Source: Enterococcus mundtii (lineage in GTDB: Bacteria > Bacillota > Bacilli > Lactobacillales > Enterococcaceae). Taken from it: DNA of 64,000 bases. Below the pieces are notes generated by a model, which had not been told where the DNA came from, did not search any database, and was given only the letters and a program-made list of their open reading frames with translations. The stretch covers positions 1,478,001-1,542,000 of the forward strand of contig NZ_CP018061.1 of NCBI RefSeq assembly GCF_002813755.1, in the 5' to 3' direction. This document shows, piece after piece, positions 3,537-22,739 of the stretch. Every line of letters starts with the position of its first letter. Position 1 is the stretch's first letter. The translations under genes were made by a program, and so were the position numbers.

Positions 3537-4553
3537 ATGAAAAAAATCGTTAGTCGTTCCGTGTTATTGTTCGTTCTACTATTTCTAGCTGCCTGTGGAA
3601 AGCAAGTCAGTGTTGATGACCTGAAAGCCAATGATTGGCTGATTGAAGAATTGGAGGAAGTAGACATGATTGCCTCTTTCTCAAATCATGTGGTATCGTT
3701 TCGCATTGATCCTTCTTCTTACCAATCGACCGCTACCAATGAATGGGAAGCCTTGGGTGAAGAATTTGCGAAAAGCATGCTTGAAGAATTTCAACATAAG
3801 TTTGAATACACGTTAGAAGGAAATATCATGACCTGGGAAAACGACGGGGAAACAGGCAAGTATACAGTAACAAAAGAAGATAAAAATATTATTCTCACAC
3901 CTACCAAAGATAACGAGGAAGATAAAAAAATTGTTCTGAAGCCATATGATAAAAGTAAAACAGCAACATCTTCTACTTCTTCAGACAGCTCCACAACTGA
4001 TAAAGACGCAACAGATGATTCATCTCTCGTAGATATCACTGATAACTCAACTGAACTAAGCGGCTCGGATGACGCGTCAGGTGATTCTGCTTTTGGCAAA
4101 CGCTCAAACCCTGTGCCCCTCGACAACCCGATCACGTTCGACACTGTTTATTATGATGACGAATATGAAGAAATCGATACAAATATTTCCTTAACCATCA
4201 GTAACGTTGTCCGTGGTGAAGAAGCGTATAATTATATGATCAGCATGGATGAGTACAATGAACCAGCACCAGAAGGAAAAGAATGGGTAGTTTTTGATGC
4301 AGAGCTAACTGTCAATAAAGGGAGCCAAGATGAGCCATATCGCGCTTTTTCTAGATTCGTACCAGTTAGTTCAACTGGTGAAGAAGTCAATCAGGAAAGC
4401 TATAGCTACTTAGGCAACGAAGAATTTGGGAACAAAGATTTGTACGAAGGTGGTACGGACAAAGGCAAAGTTGCATTGCTCGTTCCGATTGGGGACGATA
4501 CGCTTATTGAATTTAATGATTTTACAAATAGGATTTTTTTCAAATTACAGTAA
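3537..4553 (+). CDS. Predicted surface lipoprotein with DUF4352-like C-terminal domain
   Basis: 338 residues from the ATG at 3537, chosen because GGGGG precedes it and the protein then begins with a proper lipoprotein signal (KK, hydrophobic core, lipobox LAAC with lipidated Cys20). Residues 25-140 form a small domain of the kind found in Gram-positive lipoproteins of unknown function (DUF5105/DUF5640-like). A Ser/Thr/Asp-rich linker follows (about 145-185). Residues 190-338 resemble the DUF4352 immunoglobulin-like fold (phrases such as PEGKEWVVFDAELTV). The protein is expected to be anchored to the outer face of the membrane. It has its own promoter and terminator and no obvious partner. The function is not known; the lipoprotein call is secure. 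Confidence 0.8.
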   Translation: MKKIVSRSVLLFVLLFLAACGKQVSVDDLKANDWLIEELEEVDMIASFSNHVVSFRIDPSSYQSTATNEWEALGEEFAKSMLEEFQHKFEYTLEGNIMTWENDGETGKYTVTKEDKNIILTPTKDNEEDKKIVLKPYDKSKTATSSTSSDSSTTDKDATDDSSLVDITDNSTELSGSDDASGDSAFGKRSNPVPLDNPITFDTVYYDDEYEEIDTNISLTISNVVRGEEAYNYMISMDEYNEPAPEGKEWVVFDAELTVNKGSQDEPYRAFSRFVPVSSTGEEVNQESYSYLGNEEFGNKDLYEGGTDKGKVALLVPIGDDTLIEFNDFTNRIFFKLQ

Positions 4554-16834: not shown

Positions 16835-18496
16835 CTATATATCCTGCGGGTTGATTGCGTTAGGAATTGCTTTCACTTTTTCCCACTCTGAGCCGTCTAA
16901 ACGGTGTCCAGTTCCTGGTCCAGCATAGTCATTTTTATCATTGACAGCAGAAATGACATTCCAATCTTTATCAAAGATAGAAGAAGTTTGTAAAAAGTCT
17001 CCGGCAACGCGTTGTTTCAATAGATTCAATACACTGACCGCCACATCTTCAAAGCCTGTTTTAGATAATGCTTTGACTAGATCTAAACCAGTTGCTCCAC
17101 TAGCCAACAACTCTTCTGCACCTTTGATATCTTGAACCATATCACGAGCAGGCATGTCATCAGAACCACGAGCATAAGTCGCCGCTTCTACTTCTTCGTC
17201 TGTGATCGTTGGTAACCCTAACTCTGCAAATAGTGCTTGCATCGCTTTCGCTGCTTTATTACGAACTTTGATCACTTCTGCTTCTTTGACTGGTCGTAAA
17301 CCACCATCAACACGAAGGTCACGTTGTAAAATGTTGTAATCGTCGAAATCATCTGCATCAAAGTTTGAACCCGCAAACATATTGTCGTAATTCGGAGTTG
17401 CAGAGTAGCCAGAAGAGATATAGTCAGTCCCTGGTAAGAATTGCATCAATAAACGAGCTGTTCGACGGATATCTGAGTGAGAGAATGTTTGGTCATTTCC
17501 AGAGGCCACTTCAAGGTCAAGCAACATAGCGATCAAGTTTTCCGCTAAGACCGCACGAATCCCTGATGGCACCGCACCTGGAATACCGATACAACTGATC
17601 GAACCATTTTGTAACCCTTGAACCCCCGCTGCTTTTGTCAGATAAATACATCTAGTTTCCAAGTACAACATCGATTTGCCTTCTGCATAACCCATTTGTA
17701 CTTCTGAACCAGTCCCTGAGGTGAAACGCATCTTCAAGCCGCGAGACGCATAACATGAGGCAAGGAATCCTTTCGACCAAGGCGTATCATCGCCATCGGT
17801 AAATACTTTCTCTGTTCCATAAACTGAGATCGTTTCAGCATAAGCTGTGAATCCTCTCATACCAAGGTCAAGTTCAGTTGCTTCTTCCAATGAGCACTGT
17901 GTCAACACCCCTGGACGTCCAACTTGTGAACCAATCATAATCGAGATGGCATTAAATGGTGCATAACGTGCAACCGCAACTGTTGTTTCTTGCTCATCAA
18001 AGCCACGTAAAGCGCCTTCAGCGGCATCCGCAGCAATCTGCACTGGGTTGTCGCGTAAGTTTGTTACGTGAGATTGGGTGGTAGGACGACGGCGAGCACG
18101 CATTTTTTGCACAGCCATCATCATTTCAACCACGTTCATGTAGCCAACCACTTCATTGATTTTTGCCGGTGTAGCAGAAGTCGTCAATTGGATGATTTCT
18201 TCACGACAAATGTTCGGATCAACGATTTTATTCGCTAATTCTTTCGATGACATTTGCATGACTTCTTCCGCACGAGTGATGTCGATGCCATACTGTGCGA
18301 TATAAGCATCGATCAAATCAAAGTCTTCTTTTGCTTTCCCATCTAATTCAACGACCTCACCCGCAACGATCTTGATGCTTGGTTTTGGATCATTAGGACT
18401 TTGCATGGCAATCAGACCTTCGTCTATCCACTCATCAACAAATCCATCCTGGTTCACTGGTCTTTTTGATAATTCTTCAAATCGTTTCGATTTCAT
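16835..18496 (-). CDS. pduC: Propanediol dehydratase, large (catalytic) subunit
   Basis: 553 residues (554 in Salmonella). It is a TIM-barrel subunit that holds the substrate and a metal ion and starts the radical reaction of adenosylcobalamin, turning 1,2-propanediol into propionaldehyde; the same family also dehydrates glycerol. Conserved segments include RRRPTTQSHVTNLRDNPVQ, SCYASRGLKMRFTSGTGSE and the C-terminal DYAGPGTGHRL. Whether the enzyme prefers propanediol or glycerol cannot be told from sequence alone, but the pdu-type surroundings favour propanediol. Confidence 0.96.
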   Translation of the reverse strand: MKSKRFEELSKRPVNQDGFVDEWIDEGLIAMQSPNDPKPSIKIVAGEVVELDGKAKEDFDLIDAYIAQYGIDITRAEEVMQMSSKELANKIVDPNICREEIIQLTTSATPAKINEVVGYMNVVEMMMAVQKMRARRRPTTQSHVTNLRDNPVQIAADAAEGALRGFDEQETTVAVARYAPFNAISIMIGSQVGRPGVLTQCSLEEATELDLGMRGFTAYAETISVYGTEKVFTDGDDTPWSKGFLASCYASRGLKMRFTSGTGSEVQMGYAEGKSMLYLETRCIYLTKAAGVQGLQNGSISCIGIPGAVPSGIRAVLAENLIAMLLDLEVASGNDQTFSHSDIRRTARLLMQFLPGTDYISSGYSATPNYDNMFAGSNFDADDFDDYNILQRDLRVDGGLRPVKEAEVIKVRNKAAKAMQALFAELGLPTITDEEVEAATYARGSDDMPARDMVQDIKGAEELLASGATGLDLVKALSKTGFEDVAVSVLNLLKQRVAGDFLQTSSIFDKDWNVISAVNDKNDYAGPGTGHRLDGSEWEKVKAIPNAINPQDI

Positions 18497-19335: not shown

Positions 19336-19617
19336 TCAGTCAGTTAAATTTGGGAGTACTCTCTCAACCTCAGAGTGAGGGCGTGGAATCACGTAATTTG
19401 AAACAACTTCTCCCACAGAACTAGCTGCTGTCACGCCAGCGTCAACTGCGGCTTTTACTGCACCTACATCTCCTCTGACCATAACAGTGACTAAACCTGA
19501 ACCGATTTTTTCAGTGCCGATCAGCGTTACATTTGCCGCCTTCACCATCGCATCTGCTGCTTCGATCGATCCAATCAAACCGCGAGTTTCAATCATGCCT
19601 AAAGCTTCTTGACCCAT
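19336..19617 (-). CDS. pduA: BMC shell hexamer protein PduA
   Basis: 93 residues from the ATG at 19615-19617, seven bases after AGGAGG; an ATG two codons upstream is too close to the ribosome site. It is one BMC domain with the PduA pore region ([21 protein letters not shown]). It is the major facet protein and the pore that selects propanediol over propionaldehyde. It is the first gene of an 18-gene run that ends at ackA. A cre-like site and a hairpin precede it. Confidence 0.95.
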
Positions 19618-19632
19618 TGTCATACCTCCTAA

Positions 19633-19651
19633 TTTTAGTAGCGCTTACAAA
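19633..19651. promoter_or_regulatory. Candidate cre (CcpA) site in the pduA leader
   Basis: On the minus strand TTTGTAAGCGCTACTAAAA fits the cre consensus at all but two core positions. It lies a few bases before the pduA ribosome site, where bound CcpA could block elongation. This would give glucose repression of the whole pdu operon. Confidence 0.5.
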
Positions 19652-19663
19652 AACTATCATAAT

Positions 19664-19698
19664 AAAAAAAGATGGGAAATAATTGCCCCATCTTTTTT
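19664..19698. terminator. Symmetrical intrinsic terminator between pocR and pduA
   Basis: GATGGG (19671-19676) pairs with CCCATC (19687-19692), with seven A before and six T after, so it has T-tracts in both directions. On the minus strand it lies about 46 bases before the pduA start. It could be the end point of an antisense transcript coming through pocR, or an attenuator in the pdu leader. Confidence 0.7.
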
Positions 19699-19758
19699 GT
19701 ACCTATTGATATAATAATAATAATTTGCTGTGAATAAAAAAAGAAAACACGACAAATA

Positions 19759-19783
19759 GGCTTAAATTTAAATAATTCAAGCC
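19759..19783. promoter_or_regulatory. 25-bp inverted repeat I, candidate PocR operator
   Basis: Arms GGCTTAAATT and AATTCAAGCC, with one mismatch, flank a 5-bp centre. It lies in the divergent pocR-pduA region, about 140 bp from each start codon. Its centre is 32 bp, close to three helical turns, from that of the second repeat. PocR-family proteins bind DNA through AraC-type helices; that this is their site is inferred. Confidence 0.5.
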
Positions 19784-19790
19784 AAATAAT

Positions 19791-19815
19791 CTATCAAATT
19801 CTTGTCATTTGATAG
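19791..19815. promoter_or_regulatory. 25-bp inverted repeat II, candidate regulator operator
   Basis: Perfect 9-bp arms CTATCAAAT and ATTTGATAG with a 7-bp centre. It sits just upstream of the probable pocR promoter (TTGTGG-16-TACAAT, 19822-19849). A regulator bound here could repress pocR and help activate pduA. Confidence 0.5.
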
Positions 19816-19897
19816 TCAAAATTGTGGTATTTGTGATGTTTTATACAATAACCTTTGTTTTTCTGTTAAAATAAGTGCCATGAAAGGGGGCTGTTGC

Positions 19898-20806
19898 ATG
19901 ATTCAAGGTCATCCAAAAGGAATTCATTCAGATAGACTAACAAAGATATTGGAAGAATTTGCATTAGCAGTCGATTATGGCGCTGTTTTAGTTGATATTC
20001 ACGGCAAAGAAACGTCAAATCTATTTAATTTTTCTCCTTTTTGCCAAAATATGCGAGCAAATCCACAATTCAAACATCTCTGTCAAAAGTGTGATGCTTA
20101 CGGTGGTTTAGAAGCATCAAAGACTGGAAAACCACACATTTATCAATGCCATGCTGGATTGACGGATATTTCATTGCCTTTGATCCATGATCGACAACTG
20201 CACGGTTTTGCACTTTTTGGGCAAGTAAAAGTATCAGATATTGAAGATCATCAAATCGACCGCATTCATCCATCCATCACGAATTGGAAAGAGCATGCGG
20301 AGTTGAGGCATGCACGTAATAAGGTACGCGTAGTGAACAGAAAACAGGTCACGGCTGCCGCCTCACTTTTCGAAACGATTGCTCAACATTATGAGAAAGA
20401 AGAAAACCATCCCAGAGATCGAATCAAATTCAATATCAAAACAGCTGAACATAAACCGATTAAGTCTAAAAACAAACGAATCGACTCCGACCATGGAGAA
20501 ATCAATAAAGCAATCGAATATATCAATAAAAATCTCTCTCGCAATATTACCTTAGATGAAGTGGCAAATCATGTCTATTTAAGTCATTATTATTTCAGCA
20601 GACTCTTCAAAAAAGAATTAGACATCAGTTTTGTCAACTACCTTAATAAACAGAGAATCGAACAAGCAAAAGAATTATTACGCCAAACCAATTTAAGCGT
20701 TCAAAAAATTGCTTATCGCATCGGTTATACCCAACCGAGCTATTTCTGTAAGTTATTCAAAAAAGAGACCGGAACAACTCCTGCTTCCTTTCGAAGAACG
20801 AGCTGA
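19898..20806 (+). CDS. pocR: PocR-type transcriptional activator (AraC family)
   Basis: 302 residues (303 in Salmonella PocR). The ATG at 19898-19900 is chosen because AAAGGGGG lies seven bases before it; in-frame codons upstream have no such site. Residues 1-165 form the PocR sensory domain with conserved cysteines (FCQNMRANPQFKHLCQKC and YQCHAGLTDISLPL), thought to sense 1,2-propanediol. Residues 200-302 hold two AraC helix-turn-helix units (ITLDEVANHVYLSHYYFSRLFKKE and SVQKIAYRIGYTQPSYFCKLFKKETG). It is divergent from pduA and should activate the pdu operon. A B12 riboswitch transcript enters it from the 3' side on the opposite strand. Confidence 0.93.
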   Translation: MIQGHPKGIHSDRLTKILEEFALAVDYGAVLVDIHGKETSNLFNFSPFCQNMRANPQFKHLCQKCDAYGGLEASKTGKPHIYQCHAGLTDISLPLIHDRQLHGFALFGQVKVSDIEDHQIDRIHPSITNWKEHAELRHARNKVRVVNRKQVTAAASLFETIAQHYEKEENHPRDRIKFNIKTAEHKPIKSKNKRIDSDHGEINKAIEYINKNLSRNITLDEVANHVYLSHYYFSRLFKKELDISFVNYLNKQRIEQAKELLRQTNLSVQKIAYRIGYTQPSYFCKLFKKETGTTPASFRRTS

Positions 20807-20813
20807 TCCACTG

Positions 20814-20839
20814 AAAGACAGTTGTCCGACTGTCTTTTT
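20814..20839 (+). terminator. Intrinsic terminator of pocR
   Basis: AAAGACAG and CTGTCTTT form the stem around an 8-nt loop, followed by more T. It starts 8 bp after the pocR stop. Confidence 0.8.
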
Positions 20840-20846
20840 GTTTAAT

Positions 20847-20879
20847 AAAAAAATGAAGTGTCTTCGAAAAAACACTTCA
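20847..20879 (-). terminator. Riboswitch-linked intrinsic terminator
   Basis: Read on the minus strand, TGAAGTGT and ACACTTCA form a perfect 8-bp stem with a 10-nt loop, followed by seven T. It lies about 65 bases past the cobalamin aptamer. Two more hairpins (20919-20944 and 20886-20909) lie between and could form the switching part. Readthrough would enter pocR in antisense. Confidence 0.8.
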
Positions 20880-20944
20880 CTAAACAAACCGTTCAATAGG
20901 AATCGGTTTGGCTCGCAAAGTAATTTTCCCAATAAAATCACTTT

Positions 20945-21082
20945 CACATCATGTAAGGTATCCTGACTTTGCTTCATCCTACTACCTCGCCTTCCCGTAA
21001 GTGGCTAAATTGAGGGGTCGTCTGCATATACAGTAAAAAGGGTCTGTCAAGGATTCGCACCTTGTTCCCTTCACATCATGTG
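20945..21082 (-). ncRNA. Cobalamin (B12) riboswitch
   Basis: On the minus strand the conserved elements appear in order: GGGAACAAGGTGCGAATCC, a CAGACCC segment, ACTGTATATGC, GCCACTTACGGGAAGGCG and the B12 box AAGTCAGGATACCT. The ends (21068-21082 and 20945-20958) pair to close helix P1 with one bulge. It has its own promoter 20 bp upstream and a terminator downstream. No cobalamin or pdu coding gene lies directly downstream on its strand; the next sequence is the reverse complement of pocR. Confidence 0.92.
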
Positions 21083-21102
21083 CTCATATTTTATTATTTT
21101 CA

Positions 21103-21131
21103 ATTATACATTAATTCACAATCGCGGTCAA
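21103..21131 (-). promoter_or_regulatory. Strong sigma-A promoter of the B12 riboswitch RNA
   Basis: TTGACC (21126-21131), exactly 17 bp, TATAAT (21103-21108). It lies between the end of pduV and the aptamer, so the riboswitch RNA is an independent transcript starting near 21096. Confidence 0.8.
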
Positions 21132-21174: not shown

Positions 21175-21609
21175 TTATCCATTCGTAGACAAGTGTTTCT
21201 TTAACTCATCTAAACCAAAACCTGTTATCGTAGAAACTTCAAATATCTTAGAAGCACCGGCTAACTCCAATAATTCACGGGCTTTTGCTAGCGTCTGCTG
21301 ATCTGCTAAATCGACTTTGGAGATCACACCAATCACTTCTTTGTTGAATCTCGATGAAAAATAAGGTGGAAAATAGTTTTGTGCGCTTGTAATATCTTGA
21401 ACGAATGCCACTACCTCCGCCTCGATTGAAGCACTGACCAACGCATTATAATAAAACTGATTTTCCATGAACTCACCCGGTGTATCAATTGACTCATCCA
21501 GATAATACACTTGTTGAGTCTTGTGATAAGAAATGTCTTTCTTTTGTAGCCACTGTGACAATGTAGTTTTACCGCTACCTGTTTGTCCGATAAAAATCAC
21601 TCGACGCAT
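21175..21609 (-). CDS. pduV: PduV/EutP-family GTPase-like protein
   Basis: 144 residues (about 150 in Salmonella PduV). It has a P-loop GQTGSGKTT at residues 8-16, a switch-like segment ESIDTPGEF and the guanine-specifying KVDL, all of the small Ras-like EutP/PduV family. PduV has been linked to the outer surface of microcompartments and to their movement in the cell. It follows pduU by 43 bp and should be cotranscribed with it. Its own terminator is unclear; the riboswitch promoter begins 45 bp beyond its stop. Confidence 0.9.
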   Translation of the reverse strand: MRRVIFIGQTGSGKTTLSQWLQKKDISYHKTQQVYYLDESIDTPGEFMENQFYYNALVSASIEAEVVAFVQDITSAQNYFPPYFSSRFNKEVIGVISKVDLADQQTLAKARELLELAGASKIFEVSTITGFGLDELKKHLSTNG

Positions 21610-21652: not shown

Positions 21653-22006
21653 TTAGGTTTTTGTAATATTAGGCGTATCAAACCCCAAAACCGTACTCAT
21701 TGTTTGGATGACTTGTTGCAAAGCATATTCAACTGAAGATACCTCACCAGTAAAAACGACTGATCCACTAAAGCGATCCATGAAACCAATCGCCACATCT
21801 CCAGATTTTTTTGCGATATCTGCACCAATGATCGACGCCTCACTCGGTGTGATCGTCAAAATACCGATAGCATTACTTGCTTCACTTAATCCAAGTTTTG
21901 TAAAAACTTCACGATCTGCATTTGGGATAATATGCGCAAGTGTGACCTGTTTTCCAGGGACGTACTCTTGGATCGTTCGTTCGATTTGTCTTTCATTTGC
22001 TACCAT
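21653..22006 (-). CDS. pduU: BMC shell protein PduU (permuted BMC domain)
   Basis: 117 residues (116 in Salmonella). An N-terminal strand segment ([18 protein letters not shown]), which in PduU/EutS forms a small beta-barrel over the pore, is followed by a circularly permuted BMC domain ([21 protein letters not shown]). PduU is a minor shell hexamer that interacts with PduV, encoded next to it. The ribosome site AGGAGG is well spaced. A possible extended minus-10 TGCTAGAAT lies about 40 bp upstream. The pduU-pduV pair is separated from the main operon by pocR and the riboswitch. Confidence 0.92.
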
Positions 22007-22270: not shown

Positions 22271-22705
22271 TTATCTATTATTTTTCTCTGAATGAAGAAT
22301 ATCATCCGCTTTATCTGCAATGGATTCTGTTAAAAGGACTGAAAAATTTATCCCCGCACGTTTGCCTAACGTATCGGCCCATCGTGGTATCGTTAAAGTC
22401 TTTTTGACAAGTTCTGTATCCTTTAGATATTTAGCAACATCTACACGAATCAATGTCGTAAAGGAATCTTTTTCAGCAAAGACTTCTTTGATCGGCGTTG
22501 GCTCTGGTATTTGCTCTTCGTGCTCAATATAGTCCGCTAGAACCATACCTAACACCTCTTGTGCCATAGCAATTCCATAAGAGATATCATCTTCATTGAT
22601 TCCTGTATAAGCACCCTGAATATCAGGAAATTCAATGAAGTAACCGCCACCTTCTTCGGGTTTAAAAATAGCAGGATATGTTTTTGCTAAAGGTTCGCTT
22701 AACAT
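22271..22705 (-). CDS. hicB: HicB-family antitoxin
   Basis: 144 residues from the ATG at 22703-22705; a TTG three codons upstream is possible but lies on the ribosome site AAGGGA. Residues 8-60 are the partial RNase-H-like HicB fold (YPAIFKPEEGGGYFIEFPDIQGAYT, typical of HicB). The C-terminal 50 residues (WADTLGKRAGINFSVLLTESI) look like the DNA-binding helix module of larger HicB proteins. It neutralises HicA and is likely to repress its own operon. It follows hicA by 34 bp. Confidence 0.9.
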   Translation of the reverse strand: MLSEPLAKTYPAIFKPEEGGGYFIEFPDIQGAYTGINEDDISYGIAMAQEVLGMVLADYIEHEEQIPEPTPIKEVFAEKDSFTTLIRVDVAKYLKDTELVKKTLTIPRWADTLGKRAGINFSVLLTESIADKADDILHSEKNNR

Positions 22706-22739
22706 TTCAGTCAATCCCTTCTTGTAATCAAATGCGAGA

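Follow-up and report, generated by a model that had tools for sequence, protein, structure and literature searches.

Gene Layout and Components of the Riboswitch Locus

The window, i.e., the whole 64,000-nucleotide stretch of Enterococcus mundtii DNA analyzed here, contains a pdu cluster in which the regulatory gene pocR (19898–20806, plus strand) is divergent from a pduA-like shell gene (19336–19623, minus strand; BMC 2.7e-30), the first gene of the pdu operon, which is followed by the gene for the diol dehydratase large subunit (16835–18496; 1043.5 bits). On the other side of pocR lie a pduV-like GTPase gene (21175–21609, minus strand; PF10662, 1.6e-54) and, upstream of it, a pduU-like shell protein gene (21653–22006, minus strand; BMC 3.7e-11; EutS family 2e-31, below that model's cut-off); a HicB-like antitoxin gene (22271–22714) adjoins the cluster. 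By domain search, the 302-aa pocR product is an AraC-type regulator with a PocR sensory domain (PF10114, 1.1e-37, 129.8 bits vs. a cut-off of 23.9; HTH_18, 5e-23), and the NCBIfam PocR equivalog model was matched over its length with 288 bits, below its cut-off of 500.

A cobalamin riboswitch lies 3' of pocR, its putative target, and points into it, so that the two are convergent. The initial annotation had placed this riboswitch at 20945–21082 on the minus strand and proposed an Rfam covariance search, which we ran: RF00174 matched at 20936–21103 (minus strand; 55.9 bits vs. a gathering score of 31.5, E 3.4e-11) over model positions 1–189 of 189, with the annotated interval as the core of the match. 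This is the sole Rfam match at gathering within the window; weak matches in the riboswitch region, with E from 0.01 to 0.9, were attributed to chance.

The near-consensus promoter noted before (TTGACC-17-TATAAT; 21103–21131, minus strand) agrees with the consensus at 11 of 12 positions, and the riboswitch RNA is predicted to start near 21096. Sites with this pattern (17-nt spacing, at most one mismatch) number three in the window, against an expectation of 0.79, and three or more arise in 7 of 100 shuffles, so position and conservation carry as much weight as the score in the promoter call. On visual inspection, avium-type loci have a similar promoter in the corresponding position (TTGACA followed by TATTAT or a near match). 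For the short riboswitch RNA, the intrinsic terminator previously given as 20847–20879 was recovered at 20847–20881 (minus strand) as a 13-pair stem (20881–20852) followed by a U-run. Terminator-like sites number four in the 3.5 kb scanned vs. 1.9 expected, although the riboswitch terminator is set apart by its conservation. A terminator-like hairpin of pocR itself (20813–20838, plus strand) stands back to back with it, and the short riboswitch RNA and the pocR mRNA would therefore barely overlap.

The earlier statement that no gene precedes pduA on the riboswitch strand also held: of the minus-strand start sites that open at least 20 codons, a Shine-Dalgarno match of 4 bases accompanies three (74, 28, and 28 aa), and none makes a credible gene ahead of pduA. 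A small protein encoded on this strand was rejected, as the sole longer frame (74 aa) starts inside the aptamer.

Alternative Folds of the Expression Platform

Downstream of the aptamer core, the platform can form a P13 hairpin with the loop AUUGGG (20917–20944, minus strand) and the terminator, or an antiterminator (20866–20929, minus strand) in which 20929–20915 pairs with 20880–20866. As the antiterminator joins the 3' arm of P13 to the 5' arm of the terminator, it excludes both. For the stretch from P13 to the U-run the two states are nearly equal in energy (–31.7 kcal/mol for P13 plus terminator, –30.2 kcal/mol for the forced antiterminator). These features support an OFF-switch fold of the platform, in which the terminator would be favored with ligand.

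Partial transcripts gave a more varied picture, the outcome depending on where the folded stretch starts and is cut. When the stretch began eight bases ahead of the first base of the alignment, the antiterminator was the best fold at all three cut points tried before the 3' arm of the terminator. For stretches beginning at that first base and ending 22 bases short, P13 persists in the window and E. mundtii sequences, five avium-type loci (L023, L025, L027, L030, and L038) form the antiterminator, E. hulanensis shows parts of both, and E. pingfangensis, which is without P13 in the full fold too, shows neither.

Kissing between loops L5 and L13 is known for the cobalamin riboswitch family, and we presume that the GGG of the L13 loop AUUGGG has the CCC of aptamer loop L5 as its partner; this GGG is invariant in all nine rows of the alignment described below. 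An alternative pairing of AUUGGG with the aptamer segment CUCAAU was dropped, CUC being a helix strand in the Rfam model.

Conservation of the Two Folds

The alignment comprises nine enterococcal loci with the same platform, including the window (eight distinct rows); Enterococcus sp. 669A and E. florum, with other aptamer and platform sequences, stand outside the covariation counts. Across these relatives, P13 and the terminator taken together are paired in 98.4% of 184 cells vs. 45.7–57.5% in slid controls (97.7% for P13, 99.0% for the terminator alone). Three pairs are changed on both sides, a number reached by 8 of 500 shuffles, and 3 of 500 match or exceed the covariation score; the number of additional pair types is no better than in shuffles (321/500). 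All three double changes split the E. mundtii type from the rest and thus amount in effect to few evolutionary events.

The main helix of the antiterminator is likewise paired in 98.6% of 72 cells (eight distinct sequences) vs. 33.3–56.9% in slid controls, with four pairs changed on one side only and no compensatory pair. The shuffle control does not discriminate here, as 71 of 500 shuffles reach the percentage paired and 500 of 500 the other measures. Compared with dinucleotide shuffles of one arm, the complementarity is modestly above expectation in eight of nine sequences (7–17 of 1000 shuffles as good); the ninth, E. pingfangensis, for which the script chose a shortened arm, was equaled by 327 of 1000. 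With the other side shuffled, the corresponding figures are 24–96 of 1000 for eight sequences and 210 for the ninth. The aptamer, the promoter, the mutually exclusive folds with their conservation, and the gene geometry can thus all be read from the sequences themselves.

Occurrence Among Relatives

A survey of 105 genomes of the family found PocR in 12 genomes (E <= 1e-40) and a cobalamin riboswitch in 30 (E <= 0.001, under filtering that misses some weaker matches). Taking the best PocR locus of each genome, 11 of the 12 Enterococcaceae loci have a convergent riboswitch 125–463 nt past pocR, a count that includes one genome (G017) with a disrupted pocR. The record of the twelfth locus (L032) ends 166 nt past pocR, and the riboswitch is absent from these bases. 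Weaker PocR paralogues (35–45% identity) in three of the same Enterococcus genomes lack a convergent riboswitch in all five cases. PocR proteins of the avium-type loci share 58–60% identity with that of the window.

At the level of the order (395 genomes; PocR at E <= 1e-50), 23 PocR loci in 22 genomes comprise two of the E. mundtii type, 15 from a genus that by our own reading is Listeria (the coordinates of one locus, in G300, agree with L. marthii), five from a third family, and one other. A convergent riboswitch lies within 173 nt of pocR in 20 of the 23: in the genomes taken to be Listeria it stands 166–173 nt past pocR in 15 of 15, and in the third family it is found at three of five loci; the range over all groups is 122–463 nt. 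These counts indicate that pdu-bearing enterococci, like Listeria, usually have pocR under B12-gated antisense control.

Exceptions take several forms. In the first PocR locus of genome G277 (L070), which belongs to the third family, the riboswitch is 1,081 nt away, ahead of pduU-pduV, with none between pduV and pocR; this riboswitch with its terminator-like hairpin lies within L070:3223–4464, and the mRNA would run tail-to-tail into pocR. No plus-strand terminator was detected there between pduV and pocR by a scan that also missed the riboswitch's own terminator. Given the position of the switch ahead of pduU-pduV, the antisense tail would here be part of the sense mRNA. The second PocR locus of this genome has the usual convergent riboswitch. 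In a Lactobacillales MAG of the third family (G292; L050:1–336, identical to L029:4862–5197), pduV and pocR stand tail-to-tail, and between them is a terminator-like hairpin but no riboswitch; the contig ends inside pduV, placing the stretch further upstream outside our view, and the contig end was dropped as a cause of the missing riboswitch, since pduV directly follows pocR and the locus is a true exception. No riboswitch was found near pocR in G400.

Among 25 named loci, 14 of the first 17 scanned had an RF00174 match above gathering next to pocR, the three others being the same Lactobacillales MAG (L029), the locus at a contig end (L032), and Bacillus piscicola; the remaining eight, more distant, gave no cobalamin match. 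At the level of the class, 299 sampled genomes yielded the PocR of the window's genome and no other at E <= 1e-50, and none of 84 pattern-matching stretches of viral contigs encodes a PocR relative.

In Enterococcus sp. 669A (L028:5304–5437) and E. florum (L031:4987–5106), a shorter, different-looking cobalamin aptamer and platform occupy the same place, so that the aptamer seems to have been exchanged and the position kept. Separately, pocR is disrupted next to an intact riboswitch in E. raffinosus DSM 5633 (L038) and in G017 (C125:52606–53456).

Expected Transcription Entry From pduU-pduV

In all 11 enterococcal loci examined, pduV ends 10–71 nt before the start of the riboswitch model on the same strand, and in seven of the 11 the pduV stop codon and the –35 box share bases. 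No terminator was seen in the gaps between pduV and the riboswitch (by eye in the enterococcal loci, by terminator scan in the window). With pduV directly upstream on the same strand and no terminator in sight, the pduU-pduV mRNA should therefore also enter the switch. This suggests a further, tentative reading, which we hold to be possible if on balance doubtful: the riboswitch doubles as the 3' UTR of the pduU-pduV mRNA and, if PocR activates pduU-pduV, forms a B12-gated, excludon-like negative feedback loop on PocR. Were this loop real, PocR-induced messages would run on into antisense pocR except when B12 is bound, and its user in the window's species would be a bacterium that probably depends on scavenged B12.

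A comparison of words shared by the upstream regions of pduU and pduA yielded no clear PocR box. Just before the likely pduU –10 box, a strongly conserved inverted repeat with a T-run (GCATAATTTTGTT...AACAAAACTATGC) is present in loci L023–L027, L030, and L038; reminiscent of one before pduA, it could be a candidate PocR site.

Far End of the Predicted Antisense RNA

Directly before pduA, a terminator-like hairpin with a U-run (19660–19695, minus strand) is evident from sequence and fold. Of 11 other Enterococcus loci, 10 have such a hairpin in the pocR-pduA interval, and Enterococcus sp. PF1-24 has only a weak one; the stem sequence varies between groups, and the pairing stays. The hairpin is the probable 3' end of the antisense RNA; lying directly before the likely pduA –10 box, it may serve as an operator, either in place of this role or in addition to it. 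In Listeria, the match to the RliH family ends at locus position 3750 in three of four loci and at 3751 in the fourth, just after a hairpin that begins 207 nt upstream of the pocR match.

From the promoter, a loss of termination, and this hairpin, we infer a full-length antisense RNA of ~1,430 nt (19664–21096, minus strand), similar to AspocR of Listeria; such a read-through RNA would span the entire pocR.

Just ahead of pduA, at 19630–19655, the window has TGTAAGCGCTA, and several avium-type loci have TGTAAGTGCTATCA; we take both to resemble a catabolite (cre) site.

B12 Supply and Other Cobalamin Riboswitches of the Genome

Two markers of B12 synthesis were sought. CbiD was present in 16 of 19 genomes searched and was not found in the window's genome, in G028, and in a genome that is 78% complete; CbiB was present in six of eight and was not found in the window's genome and G028. 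E. mundtii, like the window's genome, gave no match to either of the two markers. The switch would, on this evidence, report scavenged or imported B12, and imported B12 is probably what the window's riboswitch senses.

The window's genome has three RF00174 matches, two of them above the cut-off. One outside the pdu cluster (L076:7050–7226; 62.5 bits) stands ahead of a BtuCD/FecCD-type ABC transporter, which matches NCBIfam B12 models below cut-off. The other, in the eut operon (L075:8490–8550; 30.6 bits vs. a cut-off of 31.5), is flanked by the genes for a PduO-type adenosyltransferase and an iron-type (eutG-like) alcohol dehydrogenase and is followed by the hairpin GAAGC-AAAGGG-GCTTC, an arrangement that, we assume, resembles the EutX region of E. 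faecalis.

Proposed Mechanism and Alternative Explanations

We consider it very likely that this locus is an enterococcal AspocR, i.e., that the B12 riboswitch acts on an antisense RNA rather than on a gene downstream and keeps PocR low without B12. RNA polymerase would start near 21096 on the minus strand or arrive from pduU-pduV. With B12 bound, the L5-L13 kissing loop would keep P13 closed and the antiterminator blocked, and transcription would stop near 20847, just short of the pocR mRNA, giving an RNA of ~250 nt. Without B12, the 3' arm of P13 would pair with the 5' arm of the terminator, and polymerase would read through pocR and stop before pduA, giving an RNA of ~1,430 nt. This long antisense RNA, or the act of transcribing it, would keep PocR, the expected activator of pdu, low, so that the operon for the B12-dependent diol dehydratase would not be made. 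The B12 response, the two transcripts, and the silencing of pocR are proposed here by analogy with Listeria.

As pduA comes next on the riboswitch strand, the switch might instead be an ordinary sense riboswitch that targets the pdu operon by read-through past pocR in the absence of B12. We regard this as very improbable: it would raise a B12-dependent enzyme precisely when B12 is absent, ~1.2 kb of antisense pocR and spacer intervenes, and the hairpin with its U-run before pduA is conserved in most enterococcal loci. Nor is it at all likely that the riboswitch is a relic, left behind when a B12-related gene formerly downstream was lost. The failure to find CbiD and CbiB in the window's genome would fit B12 genes that were lost or never present; against a relic speak the promoter, the aptamer, both folds, and the position, all kept in avium-type loci at 58–60% PocR identity, and, according to reviews, the same geometry is functional in Listeria. 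Still less credible is an action of the short ~250 nt RNA in trans, as an sRNA similar to EutX or Rli55 and not via antisense to pocR. The separate cobalamin-riboswitch match in the eut operon shows that the principle may be at home in this genome, but PocR is an AraC-type DNA-binding protein with no ANTAR domain in a Pfam scan, and the conserved feature is the convergent position.

A fourth possibility is a variant of the antisense explanation and shares in its probability: silencing may come about through interference of transcription in cis rather than through RNA pairing. Such a reading has been given for the S-box antisense RNA of Clostridium acetobutylicum ubiG (PMC7154746), whereas AspocR of Listeria is described as acting in trans (PMC8079631); we hold interference in cis to be unlikely here.

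Returning to antisense control of pocR, the analysis adds to the initial annotation the expected feeding from pduU-pduV, the probable end of the antisense RNA before pduA, and the two B12-synthesis markers that were not found in the window's genome.

Relation to Known Systems

In E. faecalis, the non-coding RNA EutX is controlled by a B12 riboswitch and withholds a B12-dependent pathway. Rli55 of Listeria is described in the same terms (PMC8079631). Both differ from the present case in that they sequester the antiterminator protein EutV and involve no antisense. Another related system is the S-box riboswitch antisense to ubiG-mccBA in C. acetobutylicum, likewise a riboswitch-controlled antisense RNA whose target is expressed at abundant ligand; it differs by sensing SAM, by a model of interference in cis, and by a target that is not a regulator gene (all as presented in PMC7154746).

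The nearest counterpart is Rli39/AspocR of Listeria monocytogenes, established by experiment (Mellin et al., 2013, PNAS; as related in PMC8079631, PMC7154746, PMC7968456, and PMC7677406). The likeness drawn by the initial annotation is borne out by the structural parts, which are present, conserved, and arranged as in Listeria, with an OFF-switch platform: a B12 riboswitch 3' of and convergent with pocR, a terminator, a pocR divergent from pduA, and a hairpin before pduA. The RNAs predicted here (~250 and 1,430 nt) also match the 230 and 1,400 nt given for Listeria AspocR, which is described as acting in trans by a silencing mechanism that is unsettled (PMC8079631). Directly upstream, however, the enterococcal loci examined have pduU-pduV, and the four Listeria loci examined have another gene. 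Moreover, PocR of Listeria also drives B12 synthesis genes (PMC8079631), whereas two markers of such synthesis were not found in the window's genome. The E. mundtii lineage would therefore separate cofactor gating from the role in B12 synthesis that complicates Listeria, and the enterococci, as a laboratory-friendly genus with a resolved platform (P13, antiterminator, and terminator), are suited to settling how the antisense silences pocR.

Outside L. monocytogenes, a 2023 survey (Serrano-Gutierrez and Merino, PMC9943018) reports cobalamin riboswitches antisense to pocR from other Listerias as well as Vagococcus carniphilus, for which the same arrangement is predicted and which, as the survey classes Vagococcus, is a member of the Enterococcaceae. 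Its main text has a single match to "enterococc", in the Vagococcus sentence. Our literature search, with most subscription papers and supplementary tables outside its scope, returned no title or abstract opening describing an antisense pocR riboswitch of Enterococcus. The phrase "enterococcal version" used previously thus stands for the genus but not as a first case outside Listeria, given the Vagococcus prediction. The kind is already known from Listeria (experiment, 2013) and V. carniphilus (prediction, 2023), and the enterococcal case joins it.

The sequence and platform of Listeria AspocR are unlike those of the window. RliH (RF01460) is the Listeria sequence family that represents part of AspocR. 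When scanned with its model (threshold 100 bits), four named Listeria loci scored 380.5–525.9 bits and the window 14.7 bits; the window's RNA is analogous in place to RliH and lies outside the RliH sequence family. Weak matches of 24.5–27.7 bits occur in Enterococcus sp. PF1-24 and in a Lactobacillales MAG.
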